Shown piece after piece: positions 52,853 through 58,326 of a stretch of DNA of 64,000 nt. Source of the stretch: Bradyrhizobium sp. CB1717 (lineage in GTDB: Bacteria > Pseudomonadota > Alphaproteobacteria > Rhizobiales > Xanthobacteraceae); NCBI RefSeq assembly GCF_029714325.1, contig NZ_CP121666.1:2790001-2854000 (forward strand). The letters are read 5' to 3'. The position numbers and the translations under genes are program-made. How positions within the stretch are numbered: the first letter of the stretch is position 1; each line of letters opens with the position of its first letter. A model generated the notes under the pieces. It made no database searches, was not told the DNA's origin, and was given only the letters and a program-made list of their open reading frames with translations.

Positions 52853-52888
52853 GGGGCGCTGGGGTACGACGGCCGCGCCACCCATTCC

Positions 52889-52973
52889 GTCATTGCGAGC
52901 GCAGCGAAGCAATCCAGAGTCTTTCCGCAGAGACAGTCTGGATTGCTTCGTCGCGAGAGCTCCTCGCAATGAC
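52889..52973 (+). repeat. Palindromic repeat copy 3 (A-B, 85 bp)
   Basis: Same element as copy 1 and same orientation, starting GTCATTGCGAGCGCAGCGAA and ending CTCCTCGCAATGAC. It lies 36 bp after the tarD stop and opens a 1.28-kb island of repeats and one nuclease gene that fills the space between tarD and the malonyl-CoA decarboxylase gene. Confidence 0.85.
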
Positions 52974-53053
52974 GGTGGAGGGAGCGGTGTCCATACCTGT
53001 CCTTCACTCGTAGACAGCGGCAGGTGATTGTCGCAGGCGTTTCCACGCACTCC

Positions 53054-53138
53054 GTCATTGCGAGCGCAGCGAAGCAATCCAGAGTCTCTCCGCGGAGGCA
53101 GTCTGGATTGCTTCGTCGCAAGGACTCCTCGCAATGAC
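53054..53138 (+). repeat. Palindromic repeat copy 4 (A-B, 85 bp)
   Basis: Same element and orientation as copy 3, 80 bp further on. Its right end lies 68 bp before the start codon of the GIY-YIG nuclease gene, making it the left flank of that gene. Confidence 0.85.
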
Positions 53139-53206
53139 GTGACGAAAGCCTCGAAATCATCTCCTGGTTGTGGTATGGTAAAAGCTGCCTTCAGCCGAGT
53201 ACGATC

Positions 53207-53494
53207 ATGAAGCAGCCCTGCGTCTACATGTTCGCCAATCGCCGCAACGGGACGATCTACGTCGGCGTCACCTCCAATCCGCCGCGCCGCGCGTTCGTGC
53301 ATCGCGAGGGATTGGTAAAGGGTTTTTCATCGAAGTACGGCTGCAAGCTCCTCGTCTGGTACGAACTGCACGCCACGATGACGGATGCGATTACGCGCGA
53401 GAAGCAGATCAAGGGTGGCAGTCGGGCAAAGAAACTTGCGCTGATCGAGGGCCTCAATCCAGACTGGATGGATTTGTACGAGACGCTGATCTGA
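53207..53494 (+). CDS. GIY-YIG nuclease domain protein
   Basis: This 95-residue single-domain GIY-YIG endonuclease (UPF0213/YhbQ-like size) has the first strand CVYMFANRRNGTIYVGVTS containing the VYM...IYVG motif, the catalytic Arg in NPPRRAFVH, and the metal-binding Glu in DAITREKQIK, then NPDWMDLYE at the end. It appears complete. It is flanked by same-orientation copies of the 85-bp palindromic element (ending 68 bp before, starting 38 bp after) and is followed by a four-fold tandem amplification of that element. DNA targets are unknown; a link to the repeats is inferred from position. Confidence 0.88.
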   Translation: MKQPCVYMFANRRNGTIYVGVTSNPPRRAFVHREGLVKGFSSKYGCKLLVWYELHATMTDAITREKQIKGGSRAKKLALIEGLNPDWMDLYETLI

Positions 53495-53532
53495 CCGGCA
53501 GTAGCAAGTCGCGAGCCGCCGCCACACACTCC

Positions 53533-54115
53533 GTCATTGCGAGCGCAGCGAAGCAATCCAGAGTCTCTCCGCAGAGACAGTCTGGATTGCTTCGTCGCAA
53601 GGGCTCCTCGCAATGACGGTGGAGGGAGCGAGGGCCGTTGCGGACGTCCTGATCCGCGGCGAATGGCAGGTTGGGTACTCAAGCCGCCGCCACACGCTCT
53701 GTCATTGCGAGCGCAGCGAAGCAATCCAGAGTCTCTCCGCAGAGACAGTCTGGATTGCTTCGTCGCAAGGGCTCCTCGCAATGACGGTGGAGGGAGCGAG
53801 CGCCGTTGCTGACGTCCTGATCCGCGGCGAATGGCAGGTTGGGTACTCAAGCCGCCGCCACACGCTCTGTCATTGCGAGCGCAGCGAAGCAATCCAGAGT
53901 CTCTCCGCAGAGACAGTCTGGATTGCTTCGTCGCAAGGGCTCCTCGCAATGACGGTGGAGGGAGCGAACGCCGTTTCTGACGTCCTGATCCGCGGCGAAT
54001 GGCAGGTTGGGTACTCAAGCTGCCGACCCACACGCCGTCATTGCGAGCGCAGCGAAGCAATCCAGCGTCTCTCCGCCGGAGGCAGTCTGGATTGCTTCGC
54101 TGCGCTCGCAATGAC
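53533..54115 (+). repeat. Tandem array: palindromic element in a 168-bp repeat, 4 copies
   Basis: Copies of the element start at 53533, 53701, 53869 and 54037, an exact period of 168 bp. Each full unit is the 85-bp element (A-B orientation) plus an 83-bp spacer with GGTGGAGGGAGCGA...CGTCCTGATCCGCGGCG...GGGTACTCAAGC. The first three copies are nearly identical. The last (54037-54115) is 79 bp with two A arms, so it lacks the 7-base insertion of arm B. The array fills the 641 bp between the nuclease gene and malonyl-CoA decarboxylase; open frames across it are artefacts. Confidence 0.92.
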
Positions 54116-57787: not shown

Positions 57788-57817
57788 GGGAGTAAGGCGG
57801 GCGGCTGCCTCCACATC

Positions 57818-58146
57818 GTCATTGCGAGGAGCCCTTGCGACGAAGCAATCCAGAATCTTTCCGCGGAGGGACTCTGGATTGCTTCGCTGCGCTCGCAATG
57901 ACGGGGGATGTGGCGGCCCCTTCCGCAACTCTCTCCACCGTCATTGCGAGGAGCCCTTGCGACGAAGCAATCCAGAATCTTTCCGCGGAGGGATTCTGGA
58001 TTGCTTCGCTGCGCTCGCAATGACGGGGGATGTGGCGGCCCCTTCCGCAACTCTCTCCACCGTCATTGCGAGGAGCCCTTGCGACGAAGCAATCCAGGAT
58101 CTTTCCTCGGAGGGCTTCTGGATTGCTTCGCTGCGCTCGCAATGAC
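57818..58146 (-). repeat. Tandem array: palindromic element in a 122-bp repeat, 3 copies
   Basis: Copies at 57818-57902, 57940-58024 and 58062-58146 (all B-A orientation, 85 bp) have an exact 122-bp period, with a 37-bp spacer GGGGATGTGGCGGCCCCTTC followed by CGCAACTCTCTCCACC. Most of the 621-bp gap between the MFS and antiporter genes is this array. This is a second, independent amplification of the same element with a different period and spacer from the array at 53533. Confidence 0.92.
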
Positions 58147-58326
58147 GGGGAAGGAGGCATCCTGCCCATGCCACCCATGATGCCATTCTGCCAGTGTTTT
58201 GCCCGACGGAGCAAGTCGTTTCGGCATAGCCGAAATTTCTGAAGCCTTTCAACGCCATTTCTACTGTGCATGGGGTTGTTTTCGCACTTTTTGTTTTCGC
58301 CGGTGAAACCGCGCCGTATCAGATTG

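Follow-up and report, generated by a model that had tools for sequence, protein, structure and literature searches.

The tarD-MCD interval

The window, by which we mean the whole 64-kb stretch of DNA analysed here, contains six copies of one palindromic dimer and one complete GIY-YIG open reading frame (ORF) in the gap between tarD and the malonyl-CoA decarboxylase gene (MCD), all on the forward strand. All six copies were read directly. The first two head-to-head dimers lie at about 52888-52974 and about 53053-53139, the second ending 67 bp before the ATG of a single-domain nuclease gene of the standalone Slx1-like or UPF0213-like kind (53207-53494; 95 aa; PF01541, E = 1.3e-13). Copy 3 (about 53532-53618) begins 37 bp past the stop codon and opens a tandem array. 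Copies 4 (about 53700-53786) and 5 (about 53868-53954) carry the tag TGTC, and copy 6 (about 54036-54115) is a near-perfect palindrome with arms that are 90% complementary and a DNA fold of -42.7 kcal/mol. All six copies are inverted pairs with their tags, either CGTC or TGTC, pointing outward.

The first-pass annotation had described six palindrome copies around a complete single-domain GIY-YIG gene, close bracketing of that gene and a 168-bp array starting from the right-hand copy. Direct re-reading and measurement bear out all three points, and TRF places the array of dimer plus spacer at 53514-54099 on the forward strand (period 168, 3.5 copies, 96% matches). The array looks like a later, ordinary tandem duplication of dimer plus spacer, which the nuclease need not have made. 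A second tandem array of the same dimer family occupies 57817-58150 of the forward strand (TRF period 122, 2.7 copies), and no nuclease gene was noticed alongside it. Eight Rfam matches to the region all fell under the gathering scores and are read as effects of palindromy. We abandoned the idea of conserved complementary arms in the inner loop of this family, because its halves are about as stable as their shuffles (mean -3.85 against -3.76 kcal/mol for 116 distinct halves, 38% of which beat their own shuffles).

The nuclease protein

PF01541 (GIY-YIG) is the sole Pfam domain of the window protein, and Pfam recovers no HUH transposase domain in it. Across 29 relatives, Y6, G19, R27, E64 and N83 are invariant, and Y17 and H31 are nearly so (numbering without the start Met). 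The gene is under strong purifying selection, with a dN/dS of 0.065 over 210 pairs of 21 close sequences from Bradyrhizobium and its kin. Slx1 enzymes, to which its nearest structurally solved relatives have been linked, cut branched DNA. The nearest solved structures by profile are the UPF0213 proteins 1zg2 (E = 2.5e-5) and 1ywl (E = 0.0074), and the accessible text of the 2006 GIY-YIG survey groups UPF0213 proteins with Slx1 (PMC1564403). Standalone Slx1-like or UPF0213 proteins (E. coli YhbQ, 1zg2, 1ywl) likewise have a single GIY-YIG domain and about 95 aa. Asn83, a candidate for the motif-E Asn, is invariant in the window's group, whereas the survey describes Slx1 members as devoid of the C-terminal Asn (PMC1564403).

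The structural relationship and the strong selection would both be expected of a host-serving, structure-specific Slx1-like nuclease, one that would maintain the genome by trimming or resolving REP hairpins and co-evolve with them but not move them. E. coli YhbQ, which is annotated as a DNA damage response nuclease, is in line with such a role, since no repeat common to its two flanks was found, unlike the bracketed window gene.

Identity of the repeat

The window repeat is a CGTC REP in the sense of Di Nocera et al. (2013; PMC3733652), as far as the accessible text of that paper describes the class. CGTC REPs are defined there by a CGTC tag, a stem opening with A-T pairs, a CCA tail and an arrangement in head-to-head dimers; they include Neisseria dRS3 and Rickettsia conorii RPE-4 and RPE-6, and Bradyrhizobium is a named host. 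The window's family shares the CGTC/TGTC tag, the A-T first stem pairs, the unpaired CCA tail and the head-to-head dimers. It differs in having a 5-bp outer stem and a long inner loop, whereas the stems described in that text are 8-9 bp and the loops 4-5 nt. Other families found beside GIY-YIG genes do fit the 8-9 bp stem and 4-5 nt loop, e.g. GTC-ATCCCCGC-GAAG-GCGGGGAT-CCA.

According to the accessible text, CGTC REPs were described in 2013 seemingly without a dedicated transposase, and its authors guessed that the CGTC transposase has vanished or that many enzymes serve these REPs (PMC3733652); here, a GIY-YIG partner was found. No report of GIY-YIG genes and REP elements as a joint system was found among the papers listed from the openly licensed PubMed Central literature, preprints excluded, and term look-ups in the main texts of RepRanger 2025, the 2018 HuH survey, the Coxiella MITE paper and the Bradyrhizobium REP paper had the same outcome. 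GIY-YIG, RAYT and REP element occur jointly in a single listed paper, where each has its own row in a gene table (PMC9465073). Literature matches to the letters of the repeat seemed unrelated by title.

Repeats and paralogues in the source genome

In the 9.23-Mb source genome the strict palindrome core has 190 matches and its reversed control 0, the half-element pattern GTCATTGCGAG-N(6-26)-GCAATCCA has 204 and 203 matches on the two strands, and 13 dimers of the family (core matches) fall within the window. Such a REP-rich host genome lends itself to an explanation by hitchhiking, in which the gene simply sits in an intergenic region full of REPs, where every other small gene would be bracketed too. 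PF01541 has five matches in this genome, namely one 688-aa frame, which we take to be UvrC and left out of the small-gene count, and four small genes. Hairpin repeats lie near both ends of all four small genes (matched against 464 kb of the genome's own sequence) and belong to four families: GTCGTCCTGGCGAAAGCCGGGACCC; CGTCATTCCGGGGCG...; TCATCCTTCGAGG...CCTCAGGATGACGG; and the window's CGTCATTGCGAG...GAAGCAATCCAG. The first three were met elsewhere in the 464-kb sample at about 2-4, 17 and 3 places, respectively, and the window's family was likewise found elsewhere in it. Four nucleases with four repeat families argue against mere hitchhiking. One paralogue (L001, C1:1146194-1146415) may be decaying because there is one in-frame TAG inside its PF01541 match; its hairpins remain.

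Bracketing in relatives and controls

Close homologues were taken as the best 80 of at least 551 relatives (59-94% identical) in a scan of genome contigs; their hosts are Bradyrhizobium, Sphingomonads, Methylobacteria, Rickettsia, Legionellales, Nitrospina, Deltaproteobacteria and Ca. Dependentiae. The 300 bp on each side of a gene were compared for a common repeat, and three of the 80 were dropped for short flanks. Enrichment of homologues next to the element had been set beforehand as a check, and within this best-80 set a common flank repeat was found in 74 of 77 close homologues, compared with 17 of the 484 remaining ORFs at these loci (E <= 1e-3). At a threshold of 1e-9 the counts were 67/77 and 5/484.

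A class-wide sample comprised 142 alphaproteobacterial genomes, about one per family and with the source genome included, in 49 of which a profile from 29 family members found matches. It yielded 93 loci (90 fetched matches and the three other source-genome loci; twelve weak or fragmentary rows were left out), 92 of them testable, and matches of at least 80 bits were termed strong. The flank repeat was present in 54 of 82 strong and 4 of 10 weak loci (58/92 in total) as compared with 6 of 136 control ORFs; at 1e-7, 44 strong and 4 weak loci remained and none of the controls. Loci in the samples of this analysis are not independent, several coming from one genome. Among ParE toxin genes, used as a small mobile control, only 1 of 28 had a flank repeat (two of 30 were dropped). 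Since control ORFs and ParE genes are seldom bracketed, hitchhiking is rejected as an explanation, and we regard it as extremely improbable. Further, the 190 cores against none in the reversed control, together with bracketing of relatives far above controls, indicate that palindrome and bracketing are not due to chance.

Bracketing extends beyond these samples and spans several bacterial phyla. Viral contigs, a set with some near-copies and with contigs that are possibly proviral or misassigned, had common flank repeats in 20/24 loci against 2/46 controls. In the phylum of a Nitrospina genome (60 genomes), the counts were 16/29 against 1/9, based on 30 fetched of the 46 matches listed, with one too short and two loci already among the close homologues. 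Among plasmid records (12 of 32 fetched), 8/12 were bracketed, including those of Neisseria, Aeromonas, Azospirillum, Sinorhizobium and the cyanobacterium Planktothrix; the four without a common flank repeat were from Photobacterium, Spirosoma and two Rhizobium plasmids. A common flank repeat was also not found at 28 of the 82 strong class-wide loci and 13 of the 29 Nitrospina-set loci.

Several individual loci deserve mention. On Planktothrix agardhii plasmid p1, the GIY-YIG gene (L320) has a gene for an MmeI-type restriction enzyme on one side and the DISARM gene drmA on the other. The Neisseria gonorrhoeae (L316) and Aeromonas caviae (L319) entries are classified as plasmids but, at 2.2 and 4.9 Mb, look chromosomal, and the nuclease gene is absent from their gene tables. 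Nine loci (L003, L203-L210) form a separate weak GIY-YIG clade, in which L003, L208 and L210 are bracketed by a common repeat of the type TCATCCTGAGC..GTCGAAGGATGA or similar. In the Nitrospina-phylum set, hairpins of the type GTCATTCTGAGCG..AGCGAAGAATCT or near to it bracket the GIY-YIG genes of L280, L281, L283, L291 and L293, so the CCA tail is not universal.

Architecture of the units

Many families have GTC-[arm-loop-arm']-CCA to the left of the gene and the inverse on its right. In several of 30 close loci inspected, two inverted half elements immediately flank the gene, with GTCATTGCGAG-loop-GAAGCAATCCAG before it and CTGGATTGCTTCG-loop-CTCGCAATGAC after it. With arms of at least 7, inward GTC-hairpin-CCA motifs on both sides were found at 22/82 strong, 1/10 weak and 0/78 close loci (controls for the three groups: 1/137, 0/19 and 0/520). 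With arms of at least 5, they were found at 15/82 strong, no weak and 53/78 close loci (controls: 0, 0 and 1/520). Both arm lengths pass over many loci, the longer one all of the close homologues and the shorter one most of the strong class-wide loci. With scrambled tags, no GIY group had more than a single both-sided match. A relaxed half-element rule, satisfied on both sides at 25/83 strong, 1/10 weak and 10/80 close loci (controls: 1/120, 0/16 and 7/507), was set aside as support.

Inverted hairpins within 75 bp of both gene ends occur at 81 of 225 loci (a few counted twice), and these 81 units measure 337-476 bp between their outer ends (median 398 bp). Such minimal units of a gene between inverted hairpins look selfish, which speaks against a host-serving nuclease.

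Pairing of nuclease clades with hairpin classes

Half elements were classed from DNA alone as class A (the window's), class B (8-bp stem, 4-nt loop) or class C (CTTG-type loop) and compared with a tree of 83 strong class-wide proteins, 35 of which were unlabelled and uncounted. Among labelled proteins, those of class A formed one clade in 98% of 200 bootstrap trees. The three hairpin classes required 8 changes on the tree compared with 17.9 when shuffled, and none of 200 shuffles was as low; enlarging the set to 108 rows (44 unlabelled) by adding 16 close homologues and the weak proteins of the class-wide sample gave 10 changes compared with 28.4. Proteins of class B and of class C are each spread over the tree, at 7 and 8 changes, and the pairing there is therefore only partial. 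That hairpin class follows the protein tree is a further point against hitchhiking.

Element abundance was also checked against nuclease presence. The first-pass annotation had named two outcomes as refuting, a lack of enrichment of homologues beside the element and an abundance unrelated to the nuclease family, and neither was observed. In the 142 alphaproteobacterial genomes, with element genomes defined by at least three copies of the three searched CGTC patterns, a strong nuclease was present in 25/33 element genomes as compared with 18/109 others (Fisher p = 5e-10; p = 3e-8 after log genome size). Of the genomes with an A-labelled nuclease, 7/7 contained at least one copy of the class A element, as did 3/36 whose strong nucleases did not include an A-labelled one and 3/99 without any strong nuclease; at least three copies were found in 6, 3 and 1 genomes of those groups. 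The class A element was also present in 18 of 20 genomes picked for holding relatives; in the two others, one flank carries a variant spelling (L103) and one an element of another kind (L120). No nuclease of at least 80 bits was found in 8 of the 33 element genomes (G045, G051, G081, G087, G093, G094, G105 and G137), which may be relics, assembly gaps or users of other partners. At least six copies of a searched CGTC element are present in G051, G081, G093, G105 and G137.

The units might instead be moved by another transposase, of the RAYT or IS kind, with the nuclease as cargo. Bradyrhizobium strains do carry GTAG REPs and tyrosine transposases as well, according to the accessible text of PMC3733652, but in the same text, apart from a handful of cases judged fortuitous, CGTC sequences were not found flanking transposase genes. 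Transport by another enzyme would also leave the cognate pairing of clades with the nuclease unexplained, and we consider it very unlikely.

Gain and loss of modules

The Bradyrhizobium tarD-MCD interval, which had been singled out for a check for empty sites, was read in 11 of 30 loci. The gene is present, with dimers on its flanks, in four intervals (source genome included). A lone dimer of the window's family occupies three others, and in one more such a dimer is accompanied by one from a different family. Of the remaining three, one has only a different-family dimer, one a variant dimer whose hairpins are longer, and one no dimer, only a piece resembling a right half. One locus in tarD-MCD context with a Bradyrhizobium-type gene (L059) comes from a record labelled Frankia sp. 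RB7, which is probably misnamed or contaminated.

Similar differences were observed between other relatives. In Azospirillum lipoferum 4B, a dimer-gene-dimer block fills the sufB-sufC gap of the suf operon; the gaps are short and contain neither the gene nor a CGTC REP in A. oryzae (95% identity), A. ramasamyi, B510 and A. argentinense, with a different inverted repeat in the gap of B510. Among Sphingobium plasmids, the unit is present in TomMM7A and TomTYG46, a single fused hairpin in TomTYG64 and TomTYG74, and neither in TomTYG72. Sinorhizobium meliloti Ak57 has a full unit and an upstream copy without the 5' part of the gene, which we read as an internal-deletion derivative; strain K101 carries one hairpin together with a degenerate half. 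In one genome of the Nitrospina set, near-identical units occur three times at a spacing of 562 bp. Comparison of the window with five relatives, and of the plasmids with one another, brought out no target-site duplication, the flanks being blurred by tens of bases, and no exact insertion ends were seen at the module-free sites compared in Azospirillum, Sphingobium, Sinorhizobium and Bradyrhizobium.

These observations bear on the host-serving explanation in both directions. A common location would suit a resident host gene, and tarD and/or MCD lies within about 2 kb of the gene in 18 of the 80 close homologues (best 80 of at least 551). However, the internal-deletion derivative, the threefold tandem units, the occurrence on viral contigs and the patchy presence of modules look selfish, and we judge the host-serving explanation to be rather improbable.

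Discussion

The partnership between GIY-YIG nucleases and CGTC REPs is well supported, and we have little doubt of it. The pairing is supported by bracketing, cognate clades, co-occurrence, module presence and absence between relatives, and purifying selection. It is likely that the window gene is the dedicated nuclease of its repeat family, in cognate, co-evolving pairs like those of RAYT and GTAG REPs. We infer that the most likely reason for the partnership is that the nuclease moves the repeats.

The first-pass annotation had likened the locus to REP-RAYT systems, and the likeness holds for architecture (74/77 and 58/92 bracketed) and for cognate pairing. Both REP-RAYT/REPIN and GIY-YIG systems consist of short tagged hairpins, often as inverted dimers, dispersed in genomes, and of a dedicated enzyme gene with its own REP class on both sides. 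They differ in that REP-RAYT combines a GTAG tag with an IS200/IS605-like tyrosine transposase, whereas the window combines a CGTC/TGTC tag with a 95-aa GIY-YIG nuclease, and in the size of the GIY-YIG units (about 340-480 bp). RAYT genes are for the most part passed on at a fixed locus. The GIY-YIG gene, too, keeps its tarD-MCD locus in part of Bradyrhizobium, and the dimers vary from one species to the next, which resembles RAYT and REPIN. Selfish DNA is also served by GIY-YIG nucleases in the case of GIY-YIG homing endonucleases and Penelope retroelements; unlike these, the window gene is intergenic between two intact ORFs, has one Pfam domain and is without a reverse transcriptase or an extra DNA-binding domain.

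If the nuclease moves the repeats, the autonomous form would be [GTC-hairpin-CCA]-gene-[TGG-hairpin-GAC], and the scattered short dimers would be the non-autonomous form with a spacer where the gene would be. The nuclease may recognise the hairpin when it is extruded or single-stranded, e.g. on the lagging strand, and would cut next to GTC/CCA; the released or broken DNA could then be copied to new places by host repair or replication.

More broadly, CGTC REPs and GIY-YIG units may represent a phylum-spanning class of tiny autonomous mobile elements of about 340-480 bp, whose movement would depend on a lone Slx1-like nuclease domain for cutting the ends of hairpins and on host repair for insertion, a proposition for which we see an even chance. 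If mobile, the units would be smaller than any autonomous insertion sequence known to us and would be, to our knowledge, the first bacterial mobility system run by a single GIY-YIG domain. Such a class would account for many of the commonest unexplained bacterial palindromic repeats, including dRS3 and RPE.

CGTC REPs are abundant in many bacteria and, according to the accessible text of PMC3733652, had no enzyme assigned to them in 2013. Our results suggest that a single-domain GIY-YIG gene is the missing enzyme of this common bacterial repeat class, and with a conserved cognate nuclease the question of the CGTC REP enzyme becomes directly testable. The pairing further points to a possible role for many standalone GIY-YIG genes and is relevant to a question posed in the accessible text of the 2006 survey, namely whether more GIY-YIG proteins are molecular parasites (PMC1564403). 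If the nuclease moves the repeats, it would be a second, independent invention of the REP-endonuclease strategy.
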